Origin: an uncultured Balneola sp.
GTDB lineage: Bacteria; Bacteroidota; Rhodothermia; Balneolales; Balneolaceae
Direction of reading: 5' to 3'
Assembly: GCA_902529365.1 (NCBI GenBank)
Contig: CABZWK010000009.1
Span: 1 to 64,000 of the forward strand
DNA: 64,000 bases
In this document: positions 22,711-39,097 of the stretch, one piece after another
Position numbering within the stretch: position 1 is the stretch's first letter
Layout: every line of letters begins with the position of its first letter
The notes under the pieces: generated by a model
Databases searched by the model: none
What the model saw: the letters and a program-made list of their open reading frames with translations, nothing else
Told to the model about the DNA's origin: nothing
Program-made: the position numbers and the translations under genes

Positions 22711-23436
22711 TCACATGGAATCTTTATTCCAGTACGCCATTTCTTCTAGACTCAAATATCCTTCATAATACGCTTTTCCAACCACAACAGCATCAATGCC
22801 TGCATGGTCTAGTGCTTCTAGGTCACTCGCTCCACTCACTCCACCTGATGCGATCCATCGAAGGTCGGGAAAAGAGCTCTTTAATTGTACATATAAATCT
22901 AGGTTTGTGCCACTTAAGGTTCCATCTTTTGAAATATCGGTGCATAGCACTTCTTGCAGTCCTTGGTGTTGCATACGAACTACCATAGACTCTGGGGGCT
23001 CCGACGCTGTTTCAAGCCAGCCACCAAAAGCCATCTGACCTTCTTTTAGGTCCAAACCAAGGATGGATTGTTGGGGATATTCCTGCACTAAACGTAACCA
23101 GTCAGCCTCATTCTGTATAGCCATAGAACTGCATATGACCTTGGATAGGCCGGCCTCCAAAAGTCTTTTAGCATCTTCGAAGCGGCGTATGCCACCACCT
23201 GTCTGGACAGAGAGCCCTAATTGGTGAATCATTTCTTGGATATGTACTAAATTTACAAATTCGCCCTGTTTTGCCCCGTTTAAATCCACCACATGAATGT
23301 GAGTGAAGCCAGCGTCTGCAAACGCCTTAGCCTGACTTAAGGGGTTATCATTGTACACGGTGGCTTGATCGTAATCTCCTTTATGAAGACGTACACAAGC
23401 TCCGTCTAGTAGGTCAATTGCTGGGATTACTTGCAT
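22711..23436 (-). CDS. hisA: ProFAR isomerase HisA
   Basis: A (beta-alpha)8-barrel isomerase converting ProFAR to PRFAR in histidine biosynthesis, 241 residues (normal length). Motifs: 'IPAIDLLDGACVRLHKGDY' with the first catalytic Asp, 'HVVDLNGAKQG', 'QTGGGIRRFEDAKRLLEAG', 'DISKDGTLSGTNLDLY' with the second catalytic Asp, and 'IASGGVSGASDLEAL'. Both phosphate-binding repeats are intact. It overlaps hisH by 10 bp. It is the last his gene of the cluster: the expected hisF and hisI/hisIE do not follow, and pgpH comes next after 93 bp. Confidence 0.95.
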   Translation of the reverse strand: MQVIPAIDLLDGACVRLHKGDYDQATVYNDNPLSQAKAFADAGFTHIHVVDLNGAKQGEFVNLVHIQEMIHQLGLSVQTGGGIRRFEDAKRLLEAGLSKVICSSMAIQNEADWLRLVQEYPQQSILGLDLKEGQMAFGGWLETASEPPESMVVRMQHQGLQEVLCTDISKDGTLSGTNLDLYVQLKSSFPDLRWIASGGVSGASDLEALDHAGIDAVVVGKAYYEGYLSLEEMAYWNKDSM

Positions 23437-24056
23437 GAATAGCTCCGTACGATTTCGTGAAAATTGTGTAACAGTTGTGCACCAGTGGCCCCACTTTTCT
23501 CTGGATGAAACTGCACCCCCAGGTAATTATCGCGCTCCACAACCGCCGAGAATTCATGAATGTATTCACAAGTGGCGAGGGTCCATGGGGTAATGGGAGC
23601 AAAGAAGGAATGCACAAAGTAAAAGGTGCTACCTGAAGGAATACCATTGAATAGCGGATGTGCTTGGGTATAATTAATCAGATTCCAGCCCATATGCGGC
23701 ACTTTGTACTCTTTGTTTCCTTTAGGATCGAAGCGCTCTAAACTCCCACTTAGGCAGCCTAAAGCCTGCGTCGGGGTTTCATTTGGAGTGCTTTCGGCGG
23801 ATGCATCGAACAGTAGCTGCATGCCAACACAAATACCGAGGAGTGGTTTTTTTGTTTGTTGCAGGTAGCTAATAAGTTGTTGTTCTCGTAGCGAATCCAT
23901 CGCGGAAGATGCATGCCCAACGCCAGGAAATATAATTCCATCGGCGGGCTCTAGTTTTTCTGGATGTTTGGCCAAATAATAGGGAATCTGTCCCCGATCC
24001 AGGGCATGTTGAACAGAAGCTAAGTTACCGGCTTTATAGGAAATGACTGCAATCAT
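23427..24056 (-). CDS. hisH: imidazole glycerol phosphate synthase, glutaminase subunit HisH
   Basis: A 209-residue class I glutamine amidotransferase subunit. The nucleophile Cys lies in 'PLLGICVGMQLLFD' and the His/Glu dyad in 'LGVQFHPEKSG'; the N-terminal 'AVISYKAGNLASVQHAL' is characteristic. It delivers ammonia to HisF, which makes IGP and AICAR. HisF is not encoded in this window, so the partner must lie elsewhere in the genome. It starts 12 bp after the hisC-hisB fusion stop and overlaps hisA by 10 bp. Confidence 0.95.
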   Translation of the reverse strand: MIAVISYKAGNLASVQHALDRGQIPYYLAKHPEKLEPADGIIFPGVGHASSAMDSLREQQLISYLQQTKKPLLGICVGMQLLFDASAESTPNETPTQALGCLSGSLERFDPKGNKEYKVPHMGWNLINYTQAHPLFNGIPSGSTFYFVHSFFAPITPWTLATCEYIHEFSAVVERDNYLGVQFHPEKSGATGAQLLHNFHEIVRSYSCK

Positions 24057-24068
24057 GATTACTGAGTG

Positions 24069-25886
24069 TTATAGGCTCCCTTTGGAACTGGGTACTTGGC
24101 CCGAAATTCTAGGGTTGTGTTCAACTGCCTGTTTTAGCGCACGCGCAAGCCCTTTGAAACAGGCTTCTACTTTATGATGATCGTTAGCGCCAAGTACATC
24201 GATATGCAGGGTAGCTTGCATATGCGTGGCTAGGCTGTAAAAAAAGTGCTCGATCATATCGGTTGGAATATCTCCCACATACACCCGGTCAAAGCTTCCA
24301 TTGAATACTAGGTAAGGGCGGCCCGATAAATCCAACGCCACCGTCGCTCGCGCTTCGTCCATGGGCAAAACAAATCCGTAGCGGTCAATTCCTTGTTTAT
24401 CTCCATAAGCCTGCGATAAGGCTTGCCCGAGTGCGATACCCACATCTTCAATGGTGTGATGTTCATCGATGTGTAAATCACCCTGACATTGTATATCAAG
24501 GTCGATGAGTCCATGCTGGGCTATTTGTTCGAGCATGTGATCAAAAAATCGTAAACCGGTCTTAATATGGTGCACTCCAGTACCGTCCAGATTGAGGGTG
24601 ATCTCAATCTTAGTTTCGCTGGTGTGCCGGCGCACCATAGCTTTTCGAGGGGACTGGGTCTGGTTGGTGGCCTGGACCGACTTGGAGCTCTGAGTATTGT
24701 CTTCCTGATCCAAAGCCGAGTGTTTTGTCTGCAGATCGAGCTGTTCGATAATGCTTTTGTATGTTGGCCCATCGTAGCCAAGAACATTGATTAATGCCTC
24801 AAAAAAACTGTTATTTTCTTCCCTAGAACCAATACTTAGGCGAAGACTGTTTTCACATTGCAGTTCGTTACCACGATAGCGTACGATTACTTTTTGTTCT
24901 GCTAATTCTTGTTGCAGACGCAGAGCGTCATCAATTTGAAAGAGTATAAAATTAGCCTGCGAATGGAAAATAGACCCAAGGGCGATGGGTGCATTAACCA
25001 GTATCTGCTTTAATAATACTAGGCGCTCGCTCACATAGGCCCGTTCAAGGAGAATTTCCTTCACTTTTGCGTGCATGATTTCTGGTTGTTGCAATGCAGA
25101 CAAGGCGACCTGAGCACTGAGGCTGTTTACGTTATATGGCGCTTTAATTTTGTCGAAATAGGTAATGATTTCTTTTGAAGCCAATGCGATTCCTAATCGT
25201 ATTCCGGCTAAACCAAAGGATTTGGACAGGGTCTGAAGCACGATTAGATTCGGGAATTCTGCTAACGATTTAGACATACTTTCGGCTTGGCTAAAGTCGA
25301 TGTATGCCTCGTCAATGACGACCAGACATCCGGCATGCTCACAAAGATATCGCAGATCCGACTCGTTGGCCATAGTTCCCGTAGGATTGTTTGGTGAACA
25401 GAGAAAAAGTACGCGTGTTTCTGGGCTAATGGCATCGATAATGGCCTTTGGTTGAAGGTTAAAATCGGGGTTCAAGGGTGCTTGGTCGACTGCTATGTTA
25501 TGTATGCGTGCGCTTACTTTGTACATGCCATAGGTGGGGGGAGTGCACAATATCCTGTGTTTAGTAGGTTCACAAAATAGTCTGATGATAAGATCTATGG
25601 CTTCATCGCTCCCATTTCCTGTGAATACCTGATTTGCATGGATCCCCCGAAGCTTTGCGATAGCTGTGCGCAACTCGCGCTGATAGGGGTCTGGATATCG
25701 ATGGAGGGTATTGGTTGAAACCGAGTGACCGGCATCTGTATCGGGAATAGCCGGTCCTATTCCAAGTTCATTGGCATCGAGTAAAATACCTTGGTCCTGT
25801 CCATACTGATCACGAGCGCTGGTATAGCTAGTGAGTTCTTGAATATTGGGGCGAACCCAGTCGATGAGTGAAAAAGACTTATTCAT
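24069..25886 (-). CDS. hisC-hisB: HisC-HisB fusion: histidinol-phosphate aminotransferase plus IGP dehydratase
   Basis: A single 605-residue ORF encodes two histidine enzymes. Residues 1-~372 are a class II PLP aminotransferase (HisC), with 'LLDANELG', '[15 protein letters not shown]', 'SPNNPTG' (164-170), '[10 protein letters not shown]' and the PLP lysine K222 in '[14 protein letters not shown]'. A polar linker rich in Gln, Ser and Thr (~375-415) leads to an IGP dehydratase domain (~418-605) with both metal sites, 'DEHHTIED' (474-481) and 'NDHHKVE' (568-574), and the C-terminal 'VPSSKGSL'. Both halves look catalytically complete. The usual HisB partner is a HAD phosphatase, which is absent here. 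The gene overlaps hisD by 8 bp, so translation is probably coupled. Confidence 0.95.
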
Positions 25887-27201
25887 GAGTGGAAGATAGA
25901 TGTTTTAAACGAATACTGACCGAGTTTTTGTGGGCTTGTAATCCTTCTCTTTCAGCTAAAATTTCGACGGTTGGTCCCACATTTTGCAGTCCAGTAGCGC
26001 TTAATTGTTGCACAGTCATGGATTTCTGAAAGGATGCGAGATGCACTCCAGAATACATGCGTGCGTAGCCATAGGTTGGTAGGGTATGGTTGGTTCCCGA
26101 AGCGTAATCTCCAACACTTTCTGGGGTGTAGGCTCCTAGGAAAACAGATCCTGCATGCTGAATGGATGGGAGGGTTTTTTCTGGCTCTCGAACATTCATT
26201 ATAAGGTGCTCTGGGGCATATTGATTCGAAAAGTCTAGGGCCGATGCTAGATCCGTGCAGCTTAAAGCGAAGGAATTTTGCAGCGCTTTAGCGGCCATCT
26301 GCTTTCTTGGCAGATCATTGAGTTGCTCTGCTAATTCACGTTGTAGTTCCTCAATGGCGAAGTCTGGTGTAAAAAGAAGTACCACTTGGGAATCGACTCC
26401 ATGCTCGGCTTGTGAGAGCAGGTCAGCAGCAATAAAATCGGGACGAGCATGCCCGTCAGCGATAATCAGCACTTCCGATGGGCCGGCTGGCATATCGATA
26501 CTCACTTGTGCTTCTGATTGTTGTACCATCATTTTTGCCGCGGTCACATATTGATTTCCAGGGCCGAAGAGTTTGTCAACTTTTGGAACACTTTGGGTTC
26601 CATAGGCCATAGCTGCTATGGCCTGTGCACCGCCCGCCTTAAGTAAATGGGTGATGCCTGCTTTTTGAGCTATGTACAGGATTTCGGGGGCCAACAAACC
26701 ATCGGGGCCTGGGGGCGAGGCTAATACACGAGTGCGGCAGCCAGCAATCATGGCAGGAATAGCCAACATCATAGCCGTAGAAGGTAATATGGCCGTCCCT
26801 CCTGGCACATATAGGCCTACTGATTCAATTTCACGAGTATGTTTTTCGCAGACAACGCCGGGCATAGTTTCTACCTGTAAAGGGGGTTGTACTTGGGTCC
26901 GGTGGAATTGTTCAATATTTGCAAAAGCTACGTCAATCGCCTGCTTTACCGTAGCACTGAGACTAGTGTTTTCAGTAGCTGGATTACTCACTAGCGGGTT
27001 GGCACTTTGCCCATCGAATTGGGTATTCCAATGCATAACGGCAGGATCGCCTTGTTCTGCTACCCGCTCTAGCACGGGCTTAACAATGGTAAAAATGGCT
27101 TCGAAATCCATTTTGGGTCGTTGTAAAAGGGTACCCAACTCCTGGGTAGATAGTCTGGCAAGGGTATGTAGTTTAAGCATTTCGGGCATTGATTTAGACA
27201 T
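25879..27201 (-). CDS. hisD: histidinol dehydrogenase HisD
   Basis: A 440-residue zinc enzyme that oxidises L-histidinol to L-histidine in two NAD-dependent steps. Family segments include '[20 protein letters not shown]', '[17 protein letters not shown]', '[14 protein letters not shown]', '[15 protein letters not shown]', '[10 protein letters not shown]' and '[20 protein letters not shown]', where Gln, His, Glu, Asp and His residues supply zinc and catalysis. The length is normal. It begins 3 bp after hisG and overlaps hisC-hisB by 8 bp. Confidence 0.96.
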
Positions 27202-27204
27202 TGC

Positions 27205-28086
27205 TTAGGCAATCATACTTTCGATGGGTAACATGACAATATCGGAGGCTCCAGCATTCTGAAGTTGTTCCATAACGTCCCAAAACTGATCAAAAGGAAT
27301 AACGCTGTGGATGGCAACCATCTCTGTTTCGGCTAAGGGCATAATGGTCGGACTCTTCATGGAAGGCAGCAGTACTTTAATGGTTTCTACTGAGTCAAGA
27401 GGAGCATTCATAAGTATGTAGCGACTTTTTTTAGCTGTTTGGTACCCATCGATTCGTTGTAAGAACTTTTGAATGAGTTGCTGTTTTCCTTCCGAAAGTG
27501 CTTGTTGGGTTTGAATAAGCTTGGTTTCGGATTCTATTACGGTAAAACGTTCAACCAGTCCATTAGCTTTTAGGGTTCCGCCTGTAGAAACCAAATCGGA
27601 GATAGCATCGGCTACATGTAACTGTGGGGTTATTTCTACAGCGCCTGAAATTTCTACCATTTCGATAGTGACTCCTAATTTTTCAAAGAAACGCTTAGTT
27701 AAATAAGGATAGGAGGTAGCTATTTTTTTACCTTCAAAGTCCGAAGGGATCACGAGTGCAGAGTCTTTAGGTGAGGCCAGTGCGAGTCGACAATTTCCAT
27801 AGTTTAAGCCGCGTAAAACGGTAACTTGAGTGTTTTTTTCAAAGACTTCATTCGCGCCGACAAAGCCCAAATCACAAACCCCATCTTGAACATATTCCGG
27901 AATATCATCGTCCCGAAGAAGAAGTAATTCAACATCGAAATTTCGAGTTTTAACCATAAGATTTCGTTTATAGTTATCGAATTCTATTCCGATCCCATGA
28001 AGTAAGTCGATGGTTTTGTCGGTTAATCGGCCACTTTTTTGGATGGCAATACGTAATGAAGTCATGTGGTCAAGAGATCGGTTCAT
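27205..28086 (-). CDS. hisG: ATP phosphoribosyltransferase HisG (long form)
   Basis: First enzyme of histidine synthesis, joining ATP and PRPP. The 293-residue length and C-terminal regulatory domain ('ILMNAPLDSVETIKVLLPSM...VIPFDQFWDVMEQLQNAGASDIV') mark the long, histidine-inhibited form that needs no HisZ. Catalytic-domain motifs: 'LRIAIQKSGRL', 'DDIPEYVQDGVCDLGFVGAN' and the PRPP loop 'ISDLVSTGGTLKANGL'. M1 (28086) and M8 (28065) are both possible starts; homologues usually begin near M8. The gene follows a candidate leader peptide and RNA stem (28143-28283), so attenuation control is likely. Confidence 0.95.
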   Translation of the reverse strand: MNRSLDHMTSLRIAIQKSGRLTDKTIDLLHGIGIEFDNYKRNLMVKTRNFDVELLLLRDDDIPEYVQDGVCDLGFVGANEVFEKNTQVTVLRGLNYGNCRLALASPKDSALVIPSDFEGKKIATSYPYLTKRFFEKLGVTIEMVEISGAVEITPQLHVADAISDLVSTGGTLKANGLVERFTVIESETKLIQTQQALSEGKQQLIQKFLQRIDGYQTAKKSRYILMNAPLDSVETIKVLLPSMKSPTIMPLAETEMVAIHSVIPFDQFWDVMEQLQNAGASDIVMLPIESMIA

Positions 28087-28142
28087 GAGAGGTATTAAAA
28101 ATTGGGTGAAAATGAGTTATCAGACGCAGGCGAGTTGAAGAA

Positions 28143-28216
28143 GGGGATTTGCGCGTAAAATTAATTTAAGGAATATCCATAGTGCGATTAGCAGGGATAT
28201 AGATGCACAAATCCCC
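28143..28216 (-). promoter_or_regulatory. candidate his leader RNA structure (12-bp stem with nested 6-bp stem)
   Basis: In the his mRNA sense, GGGGATTTGTGC (28216 down to 28205) pairs with GCGCAAATCCCC (28154 down to 28143) as a continuous 12-bp stem with one G-U wobble. On the other strand the wobble becomes an A-C mismatch, which favours a function in the his transcript. A nested stem ATATCC/GGATAT (28195-28200 with 28173-28178) holds the leader peptide stop in its loop. The outer 5' arm lies inside the leader ORF over its fifth His codon, so a ribosome stalled there would block pairing. The 3' arm is followed by TTCTTC rather than a long T-run, so a classical terminator is not clear. Confidence 0.5.
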
Positions 28217-28283
28217 ATGGATGTACATTAAGAATATGTACAGAGGTGTGTACAGAAATTGTATGTAATGGTGATTTGTACAT
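28188..28283 (-). CDS. hisL: candidate histidine operon leader peptide (31 codons, 5 His)
   Basis: An ORF of 31 codons, too short for the ORF track, runs from ATG at 28283 to TAA at 28188, about 100 nt before hisG. It carries His at positions 7, 12, 16, 21 and 27, or 16% of residues. Four of these follow Val (codons GTA CAC, GTA CAT, GTA CAT, GTG CAT). In known his attenuators a ribosome slowing at His codons shifts a downstream RNA fold and allows hisG expression. The usual design is a run of His codons, so the even spacing is unusual. No SD precedes it. The Val-His pairs coincide with TGTACA hexamers, so an operator array is the main alternative reading. Confidence 0.55.
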   Translation of the reverse strand: MYKSPLHTISVHTSVHILNVHPWGFVHLYPC

Positions 28284-28414
28284 AAATAGAGTATAAATAT
28301 AGGCATTAAATAACAAAGGAGGAACGGGAATTTTATTACCACGAAAAGCCGTTAGTGTTACAGAATATTTACCGCTTTAATGCTATATTAAGTCAATAAA
28401 CGTAATTTTATACT

Positions 28415-28657
28415 ATGCATACAATTGCTCAATTAACATACATTCCTTTAGCTACACACAATCCGACTGAATTGGTTCAGGAATTGTTGGAACATCTAGC
28501 ACAGTACGAGGTAAAAATTGAGGTAGGTTATCTTTCATCAACGGTCATTGGAGAGCCAGAGGAAGTCTTTAAATTGATTAAAGAAACCTACGAAATGATG
28601 TCTGTAGAGCAAGAACGATTTAGGTTTCATATAGAGTTGCTTAGTCCAGAGAAGTAA
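28415..28657 (+). CDS. YkoF/MTH1187-like (thiamine-binding type) small protein
   Basis: An 80-residue protein with a single ferredoxin-like repeat. 'IAQLTYIPLATHNPTELVQELLEHL', 'VKIEVGYLSSTVIGEPEEVFKLIKETYE' and a closing 'FRFHIELLSP' match the MTH1187/YkoF family, in which a core domain binds thiamine or a related ligand. It is slightly shorter than typical (~95-100). The gene is divergent from hisG and 63 bp upstream of lepA. The ligand is unknown in this lineage. Confidence 0.6.
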   Translation: MHTIAQLTYIPLATHNPTELVQELLEHLAQYEVKIEVGYLSSTVIGEPEEVFKLIKETYEMMSVEQERFRFHIELLSPEK

Positions 28658-28720: not shown

Positions 28721-30523
28721 ATGTCAGATATCAGGAATTTTTGCATCATAGCTCATATCGATCACGGTAAGAGCACCCTAGCAGACCGGTTGCTGCAAAT
28801 CACCGGTACAATTACTGAACGAGAAATGCAGGAGCAAATGCTCGATGACATGGACTTGGAACGTGAGCGTGGTATTACCATTAAAAGTCATGCTATCAAG
28901 CTGAATTATGTACGTCCAAATGGAGAAAAGTATTTCTTTAATCTAATCGATACACCTGGTCACGTAGATTTTGCTTATGAGGTGTCGAGAGCGCTTAAAG
29001 CATGCGAAGGAGCCATTTTGGTTGTGGATGCCACTCAAGGTATTGAAGCGCAAACCATATCAAATTTGTACCAGGCCATTGAGCAGGGGCTTGAAATTAT
29101 ACCGGTGCTCAACAAAATAGACTTACCCTCTTCCGATCCCGAGGGAGTGGGCCAGCAGGTGGTGGATTTAATTGGCTGTAAAATGGAGGAGATTTTGCAT
29201 GTTTCTGGGAAGACAGGTGAAGGAGTTCCGGAACTATTAGAGGCCATTGTAGAGCGAGTACCCGCGCCCAAAGAAGAGGTTGATAAACCCTTACGTGCCT
29301 TAATCTTTGATTCCATTTTTAATACCTACCGGGGATCGGTTGCCTATGTCCGCGTATTCGAAGGCGTGTTGAAAAAAGGGGAGCGATTTCGATTTATGGC
29401 CAATGAAATTGAGTACAATGCCGAAGATGTAGGCTATTTGCGCATGAGTTATGAGCCTACTCAGGAGCTTCGGGCTGGTGATGTAGGCTATGTGATTGGA
29501 AGCGTTAAATCACTTCAAGATGTGCGTGTGGGGGATACCATCACCCATGTAAAAAATGGGGCTACGGTGCCTATTCCTGGTTATCAAGAAGCCAAACCGA
29601 TGGTATTTAGTGGAATATTCCCGACTCAATCGGAAGATTTCGAGGACTTACGGTCGGCTTTGGAAAAACTCCAACTTAATGATGCCTCCTTGACCTATGA
29701 GCCTGAAACCTCTAAAGCCTTAGGCTTTGGTTTTAGGGCTGGTTTCCTTGGCTTGTTGCATATGGAGATTGTTCAAGAGCGTTTAGATCGAGAGTTCGAT
29801 ATTGACATTATTACCACAGTTCCTAACGTACAGTACGAGGTTGAGCTCGAAGATAAATCAAAGATCAGGGTGGATAACCCTAGTCAGATGCCTGAAGTAG
29901 GAGAAATCAGTACTATTTATGAACCGTACATTAAGGCTAATATCATCACACCAGCAGAGTACATTGGTCCTATAATGAAACTTTGTCAGGAACGACGAGG
30001 TATTTATGTAAACCAGATGTTTATGCAAAATAACCGGGTGGAGATAACCTATGAACTACCCATGGCCGAAGTGGTTTTTGATTTTTATGATCGCCTGAAA
30101 TCTGGTACACGTGGTTACGCATCGTTGGATTATGAATTCATCGAGTACCGGCCAGGCCAGTTAGTGCGGTTGGACATTTTGTTGAATGGAGATCAGGTAG
30201 ATGCATTGTCGTCCATTTCGCACAGGGATAAAGCGTACTATCAAGGGCGAAAAGTGTGTGCTAAGTTAAAAGAACTTATTCCCAGACAACAATTCGAAGT
30301 GGCGGTACAGGCAGCTATCGGTTCTCGTATTATTGCTCGTGATTCAGTTCGAGCCCTTCGTAAAGATGTTACGGCGAAGTGTTATGGTGGGGATATTTCG
30401 CGTAAGCGAAAGTTACTCGAGAAACAAAAAGAGGGTAAGAAGCGGATGAAGCAGGTGGGTGCAGTGGAAATTCCACAGGAAGCTTTCCTAGCGGTTCTAT
30501 CCATGGACGACGATGACCGGTAA
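28721..30523 (+). CDS. lepA: elongation factor 4 (LepA) GTPase
   Basis: A 600-residue translational GTPase that binds stalled or mistranslocated ribosomes and aids 30S biogenesis. G motifs: '[15 protein letters not shown]' (G1), 'RERGITIKS' (G2), 'DTPGHVDF' (G3) and '[10 protein letters not shown]' (G4). The LepA-specific C-terminus is intact ('[20 protein letters not shown]...[22 protein letters not shown]'). The length is canonical. It is followed 33 bp later by a secreted protein of unknown function and then lepB, as in the classic lepA-lepB pairing. A CCCCAA-AAG-TTGGGG hairpin lies at 28678-28692, ahead of the start. Confidence 0.97.
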
Positions 30524-38302: not shown

Positions 38303-39097
38303 ATGAGTACGGATCGATTTAGAATCAAAAAACGCCTTGGCCAGCACTTTCTCACGGATAAGAATGTGCTCAGTAATATAGTTACCGCTTTTCCAGCTAC
38401 TTCGAATGATTGGGTGCTTGAAATTGGCCCGGGGACAGGGGCTCTGACTCAGTATCTTTGGCCGCGCTACCCGCGGCTGGAGTTGGTTGAGGTGGATGCT
38501 GAAGCAGTGGCTGTGCTTAATGAGCGGTTTGAAGGGTTGCTTATTCATCAGCAGGATATACTCAAGGTCAATTTACAGGAGCTTATTCCTCAGCAGTTAG
38601 TTGCAGATCAGGAAGCGGCAAAGCCTAAAAATTATGTCATTGGAAATCTACCATATTATATCACCAGCCCTATTTTATTTGGTCTTTTGGCGCATAGAAG
38701 TAGATTAGCTGGCGCTTTATTGATGATGCAAAAGGAAGTTGCTCAGCGTTTGGTAGCATTACCAAGGACCAAGGATTATGGAATTTTAAGTGTGCAAACT
38801 CAGCTCATGAGTAGCCTGGAATATCTTTTTGACGTGAAGCCAGGATCTTTTAGCCCACCACCAAAAGTAACCAGTGCCATGGTGTACGTACATTTTGACA
38901 AGCCTGCCTTAGCTTGTTCCGACAAAATGCTCAAAACCGTTGTAAGAACTGCTTTTAACCAGCGTAGGAAAAAGCTCAGTAATGCTCTAAAATGTATGAT
39001 TCAAGGGGTTGATTGTTTGCATTTTGACTTAGATGTTCGAGCGGAGGAATGGACACCTGACATTTATGCAGAGTTTGCGGCCTATTTAGAAGCGTAA
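38303..39097 (+). CDS. rsmA: 16S rRNA dimethyladenosine transferase RsmA (KsgA)
   Basis: A 264-residue SAM-dependent enzyme that dimethylates A1518 and A1519 of 16S rRNA late in 30S assembly. Motifs: 'KKRLGQHFLTDKNVLSNIV', motif I 'VLEIGPGTGALTQYL', 'LVEVDAEAVAVL' and the catalytic 'NYVIGNLPYYITSPILFGLL', then 'MMQKEVAQRLVA' and 'FSPPPKVTSAMVYV' with a helical C-terminal domain. The length is normal. It follows the usp remnant by 31 bp and precedes groES. Confidence 0.95.
   Translation: MSTDRFRIKKRLGQHFLTDKNVLSNIVTAFPATSNDWVLEIGPGTGALTQYLWPRYPRLELVEVDAEAVAVLNERFEGLLIHQQDILKVNLQELIPQQLVADQEAAKPKNYVIGNLPYYITSPILFGLLAHRSRLAGALLMMQKEVAQRLVALPRTKDYGILSVQTQLMSSLEYLFDVKPGSFSPPPKVTSAMVYVHFDKPALACSDKMLKTVVRTAFNQRRKKLSNALKCMIQGVDCLHFDLDVRAEEWTPDIYAEFAAYLEA

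Follow-up and report, generated by a model that had tools for sequence, protein, structure and literature searches.

The window, by which we mean the whole 64,000-nucleotide stretch of Balneolaceae DNA analysed here, carries upstream of hisG an element that, judged by its conservation in relatives, is a genuine his leader peptide. With a probability of roughly 0.6 we read it as an attenuator that controls the hisG-D-CB-H-A operon by ribosome-based sensing of histidine and whose output is probably Rho-dependent. The preliminary description had proposed a His leader peptide attenuating hisG; the leader peptide is strongly backed by conservation and attenuation is likely, albeit without the classical terminator.

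Leader ORF and his operon of the window

The following features were annotated in the leader and in the operon behind it:

28188-28283, minus strand: ORF of the His leader peptide, 31 codons, His at codons 7, 12, 16, 21 and 27, stop codon at 28188-28190
27205-28086, minus strand: hisG, ATP phosphoribosyltransferase (long form), first gene of the operon (TIGR00070, TIGR03455, PF01634, PF08029)
25879-27201, minus strand: hisD (TIGR00069)
24069-25886, minus strand: hisC-hisB fusion, a single 605-aa ORF (TIGR01141 at residues 12-365, HisB models at 395-605)
23427-24056, minus strand: ORF reading as hisH, from its translation only
22711-23436, minus strand: ORF reading as hisA, with a weaker match of HisA/HisF type

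The product encoded by the minus-strand ORF from 28283 to 28188 is MYKSPLHTISVHTSVHILNVHPWGFVHLYPC, and the distance from this ORF to hisG, whose ATG is at 28086, is 101 nt. The first account of the ORF, with 31 codons and His at the five positions listed, four of them after Val, matches the sequence exactly. Because 18 of 2000 Markov-shuffled versions of the 300 upstream nucleotides contained an ATG ORF of 10-40 codons with at least five His codons, the window sequence by itself is suggestive and not conclusive. Just two such ORFs are present in the whole window, the second one (at 38893, minus strand) encoding MYVHHGTGYFWWWAKRSWLHVKKIFQATHELSLHT. The Rfam search of the window gave no family at the gathering score and no match to a known leader (His_leader), T-box or riboswitch.

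Next to the operon, a divergent small ORF of 80 aa (28415-28657, plus strand) with a borderline match to PF01910 (thiamine-binding protein family) sits between the his leader promoter and an elongation-factor-like ORF at 28721.

Conservation of the leader peptide

The survey of Balneolaceae comprised 53 distinct hisG upstream regions of at least 200 nt, 47 of them from outside the window genus. A His-rich leader ORF with 4-12 His codons was present in all 53, the typical peptide being VKNKRLHNAHHLHHGLHHGHHHVH. None of the 49 hisF and hisI upstream regions carried such an ORF, which makes the leader a specific feature of the hisG operon.

Within the window genus, four more species have the ORF at the same place, with 28-31 codons and 6-7 His codons; their peptides are MYQSPLHNSSLHTSVHVVHVHLRGFVHLHPC, MYNSPLHTTLLHTSEHVHHVHPRGFVHLYPC, MYISPLHTISMHTSVHVHPRGFVHLHPC and MNISPIYTTLMHTSVHVSHVQLMGFVHVHHC. 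The deletion of 9 nt found in the leader ORF of one congener is in-frame, and 37% of the codons with a single difference are synonymous in the genus comparison, against 23% expected. These percentages point to modest purifying selection on the leader peptide, and both the frame and the His codons persist in the relatives. In a sixth congener (L006), the region is rearranged and contains an ORF with 10 His codons, the TTG start of which is uncertain.

His codons 12, 16 and 27 are kept in all five species of the genus and codons 7 and 21 in four of the five. The congeners carry additional His codons at 18/19, 29 or 30, codons 19 and 29 being CAT in congeners and AAT and TAT, respectively, in the window, and the His codons of the sister genera are clustered. 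The window species has the lowest His count of the genus (5 versus 6-10). Since congeners have extra His codons and sister genera have clusters, the regular spacing, first taken for an unusual variant of design, looks like dilution or loss of His codons in the window lineage and not like a separate class. In an attenuation model, a smaller regulatory fraction of control codons lowers the predicted sensitivity (PMC1183508). The predicted leaderless start and the missing terminator, described below, are more unusual than the His spacing.

Promoter box and predicted transcription start

One promoter element was annotated before the leader:

28294-28301, minus strand: -7 promoter box TATATTTA, of the Bacteroidota type TAnnTTTG, 10 nt before the leader ATG

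The TATATT of this box is common to all six aligned members of the genus. The distance from a TAnnTT box to the start codon is 4-5 nt in 45 of the 53 Balneolaceae his leaders, in which the third T is also frequent, whereas this spacing was found in 6 of 166 control genes. The controls for promoters and base composition were sampled from 20-kb stretches of three genomes, including that of the window. In the window genus the gap between box and start codon is 9-11 nt, and in the Trp leaders of Balneolales the start codon follows the TAnnTT box by 4-7 nt.

In Flavobacterium psychrophilum, the TAnnTTTG box was mapped at -12 to -5 (PMC9723704), and therefore transcription at the loci with a 4-5 nt gap would begin at the leader start codon or one base before it. 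The prediction carries a flavobacterial measurement over to Balneolota, and leaderless mRNAs make up only 5.5% in F. psychrophilum (PMC9723704). We consider a leaderless start of the his mRNA quite likely. For the window, the position of the box puts the predicted transcription start at about 28289, with a 5' UTR of about 6 nt. A start downstream of 28283, the situation which the preliminary description had set against a leader, is not what the box predicts, as the predicted start precedes the ORF.

Missing terminator and composition of the spacer

The stretch between the leader and hisG was annotated as follows:

28087-28187, minus strand: leader-to-hisG spacer, candidate Rho loading (rut) tract, 30% C and 9% G, without an intrinsic terminator

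The scan for terminators required a hairpin with a U-run at or below a cut-off of -8 kcal/mol. Between leader and hisG, it found an intrinsic terminator at just 4 of the 53 Balneolaceae loci, which is near chance (8%, with 2% in shuffles). The same scan detected terminators in all Trp leaders of this order (22/22) and in 14/15 His leaders from Ignavibacteria and other distantly related groups, so the absence is not a failure of the scan. The Trp leaders, mostly with a WWW motif, precede trpE at 22 loci of Balneolales (L111-L140), and the sister genera carry both a terminator-less His leader and a classical Trp leader. In the window genus, eight species were examined (L118, L122, L123, L125, L128, L130, L131 and L137), none of which showed a Trp leader. 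In Ignavibacteria, Melioribacteraceae and one Saprospiraceae, hisG is preceded by His-rich short ORFs followed by terminator hairpins (L088-L109); several of these ORFs end in RGAG-type sequences. Upstream of ilvB and leuA, which are possibly not the first genes of their operons, nothing convincing in the way of leader peptides was found.

The spacers from the leader stop codon to hisG in Balneolaceae contain 27.0% C and 7.9% G (over 4114 nt). Upstream of the promoter, the 47 loci outside the window genus have 18.1% C and 18.5% G, and the Trp leader spacers show no C bias (17.4% C, 20.4% G). In the survey of 166 upstream regions from three genomes, the last 65 nt before hisG had the highest C-minus-G value, which was reached by 0/83, 0/31 and 0/51 controls in the respective genomes. 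Ranks 2 and 3 of the 166 are held by the C-rich, G-poor 65-nt regions upstream of 54069 and 56636, both on the minus strand of the window. A C-rich, G-poor tract of about 60-80 nt is present after the leader stop codon, and Rho loads on tracts of this composition and length.

Rho homologues occur in all 19 genomes searched. The genome of the window has two, at G000:C4:63433-64614 (L226) and G000:C13:10776-12338 (L227), a long Rho (open frame of 539 aa) and a short paralogue of 413 aa scoring above the PRK09376 Rho cut-off. Most of the Balneolales genomes searched contain this pair of a long and a short Rho.

Predicted RNA pairings in the window genus

Three regions of the leader RNA were distinguished:

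28205-28216, minus strand: region 1, 5' stem arm GGGGATTTGTGC, within the leader ORF (from conservation and folding)
28143-28154, minus strand: region 2, 3' stem arm GCGCAAATCCCC, past the leader stop codon (from conservation and folding)
28124-28128, minus strand: region 3, TGCGT, alternative partner of GCGCA in region 2 (from ribosome-placed folding)

The 12-bp stem of regions 1 and 2, noticed already in the preliminary description, was found as described there; of His codon 27, just the first base falls within the 5' arm. Compared with shuffled sequences, the folded region has a higher stability (z = -4.7, 0/200). In five species, 23 of the 24 columns of the stem arms are invariant, compared with 100 of 173 elsewhere, and the third codon positions within the arm are invariant in 4/4 cases, compared with 14/27 elsewhere. 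The near invariance of the arms and of all their third positions suggests a constraint at the RNA level; the arms hardly vary and show no covariation.

For the alternative pairings, the RNA was folded with the ribosome positioned on each of the His codons in turn, its leading edge 12 nt beyond the A-site codon. With the ribosome at His 7, 12 or 16, the 12-bp stem 1:2 is predicted. A ribosome at His 21, at His 27 or at the stop codon covers region 1, and the pairing 2:3 (GCGCA with TGCGY) is predicted. Region 3 reads TGCGC elsewhere in the genus. The switch is predicted in four of the five species; in the remaining congener (G008), a 2:3 pairing of 8 bp is favoured in every state. The start region of hisG is mostly unpaired in the predicted folds of the window genus, whichever state is modelled.

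Across the sister genera, RNAalifold gave only two pairs of common structure, and folding within the ORF was no better than after synonymous permutation. A hairpin at the stop codon better than in shuffled downstream sequence (p<=0.05) was found in only 28% of loci.

Proposed mechanism

Ribosome stalling on control codons is the established sensing logic of such leader ORFs, and histidine is very probably sensed in this way here, in agreement with all the observations. Transcription starting at the leader start codon or a few bases before it would allow immediate loading of ribosomes on the His-rich leader. If charged His-tRNA were scarce, the ribosome would stall on the His codons; if it were plentiful, the ribosome would reach the stop codon. 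A stall at His 7, 12 or 16 would, in the window genus, leave the 1:2 stem to form and a ribosome at His 21 or beyond would lead to 2:3, the two being mutually exclusive. With plentiful histidine, Rho would load on the free tract and end transcription before hisG or early within it. During starvation, Rho would be hindered by the stem that depends on stalling and lies at the 5' edge of the tract, or else by the stalled ribosome. Antitermination might alternatively come from the masking effect of ribosomes that have stalled at the last His codons; in many leaders, -VH directly precedes the stop codon.

A factor-dependent output would be the most economical one because there is no terminator and no sequestered hisG start and the spacer is rich in C and poor in G. 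For Rho-type output taken by itself, we put the chances slightly short of even. The sign of the response hinges on the proposed stem or on masking by the ribosome, since early stalling would, under a simple Rho model, leave more RNA exposed. Rho action can be predicted only weakly from base bias, and further points against the proposed reading are that the switch is without covariation support, that G008 prefers 2:3 throughout and that the sister genera share no consensus structure.

Alternative explanations

The main rival is translational attenuation or mRNA protection, in which a ribosome stalled near the 5' end would alter the translation of hisG or shield the mRNA from decay while termination is unaffected. 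Protection by a stalled ribosome would have its likeness in stabilisation of the ermC type. Both the leaderless start predicted beside the promoter box and the absence of a terminator agree with this rival. A precedent is offered by leaderless poly-Cys attenuators of mycobacteria, in which such a sensory ORF can act on downstream translation (PMC9031893). We nevertheless regard it as unlikely: the hisG start, mostly unpaired in all modelled states, shows no obvious sequestration, a G-poor spacer is hard to sequester, and the C-rich bias is not common to other genes.

Classical attenuation with a cryptic or non-standard terminator would have 2:3 or another hairpin halting RNA polymerase at U-runs before hisG. 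Exclusive, ribosome-dependent pairings 1:2 and 2:3 are indeed predicted in the genus, and many loci have runs of 5-6 U at 10-35 nt upstream of hisG. However, no hairpin adjoins a U-run at 49 of the 53 loci, whereas strong terminators are found by the same scan in all Trp leaders of the order, and the 2:3 pairing comprises no more than 5-8 bp closing a loop of some 15-21 nt, so that this explanation appears improbable.

It is slightly less probable still that the leader is decaying, with His codons being lost in the window lineage and regulation weak or gone. The His count of the window species, the smallest in its genus, would fit such decay, as would the lack in this genus of the Trp leader seen in sister genera; the retention of His 12, 16 and 27 in 5/5 species, the nearly invariant stem arms and a spacer bias in the window as strong as anywhere speak against it.

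The last alternative, a DNA operator of TGTACA repeats bound by a repressor with the ORF incidental, was rejected as highly improbable, for although the window sequence has several GTACA-containing repeats, TrpR-family HisR repressors are known in other bacteria (PMC9413887) and a HisR-like gene occurs in a congener with a divergent hisG, most of the GTACA repeats are accounted for by Val-His codon pairs, no TrpR-family hit (PF01371) was obtained in the genome of the window (G000, 86% complete), and in congeners the hexamers are not conserved while the frame and the His codons are, the opposite of the pattern that the preliminary description had named as speaking against a leader.

In that congener (G006, L225:1239-2361), the divergent hisG has 43% identity, is directly preceded by an overlapping TrpR-family gene of the YerC/YecD type and has no His leader. 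It is probable from this arrangement that hisG was replaced there together with its regulation.

Comparison with known leader systems

Leader peptides are best known from Proteobacteria and also from Actinobacteria and Firmicutes, mostly with hairpin terminators. Like the enterobacterial his attenuator (hisL; Rfam His_leader), the Balneolaceae leader is a short His-rich ORF just before the first his gene, hisG, and in the window genus the position of the ribosome is predicted to choose the RNA pairing. Unlike hisL, it has no Rfam match and no intrinsic terminator and is predicted to be leaderless, and in the window genus its His codons are spread out. What departs from known his leaders is thus the predicted leaderless start together with the absence of a terminator.

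With the leaderless poly-cysteine short ORF attenuators of mycobacteria, reportedly described by Canestrari et al. in 2020, the leader has in common a first ORF that is predicted to be leaderless and would sense the regulated amino acid through its codons; the amino acid, the phylum and the operon are different, and here the spacer is C-rich and G-poor and sequestration of the downstream start is not predicted. In Escherichia coli tnaC, an arrest peptide senses free Trp and induces a catabolic operon, with Rho-dependent attenuation at the leader stop codon. The likeness to tnaC lies in the candidate rut tract right after the leader stop codon and in leader translation that would gate Rho, whereas stalling here would be codon-specific and serve a biosynthetic operon. 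For the Cys leader peptides of Mycobacterium, which likewise have a pyrimidine-rich spacer and no terminator hairpin, Rho-dependent termination was proposed (PMC1262725). The pyrimidine motifs of these Cys leaders lack conservation, and the prediction was described as weak (PMC1262725), whereas the bias described here recurs over 53 loci with internal controls.

The Trp leaders of Balneolales and the His leaders of Ignavibacteria are likewise leader peptides before a first gene, the Trp leaders also lying near the box, but both retain the classical terminator. In the literature, we found no relevant report of his leader peptides in Bacteroidetes or Balneolaceae, although the attenuator survey of Vitreschak et al. 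(2004) may include wider Bacteroidota cases. Hints of attenuation by leader peptides at amino acid operons have been reported for F. psychrophilum (PMC9723704).

Implications for Balneolaceae

Tentatively, Balneolaceae may use two leader attenuators, a classical one for trp with a terminator hairpin and one for his that would be leaderless and terminator-less, with the position of the ribosome gating Rho on a C-rich tract. The sister genera with a His leader and a classical Trp leader, the distant relatives with classical His leaders and the one congener with a HisR-like repressor form a natural comparison set. With the his leader of Balneolota, it becomes directly testable by what other means a ribosome stalled on a leader can be read out. 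If the proposed reading is true, sensing would fall to a leaderless mRNA end and switching to Rho in the control of a biosynthetic operon.
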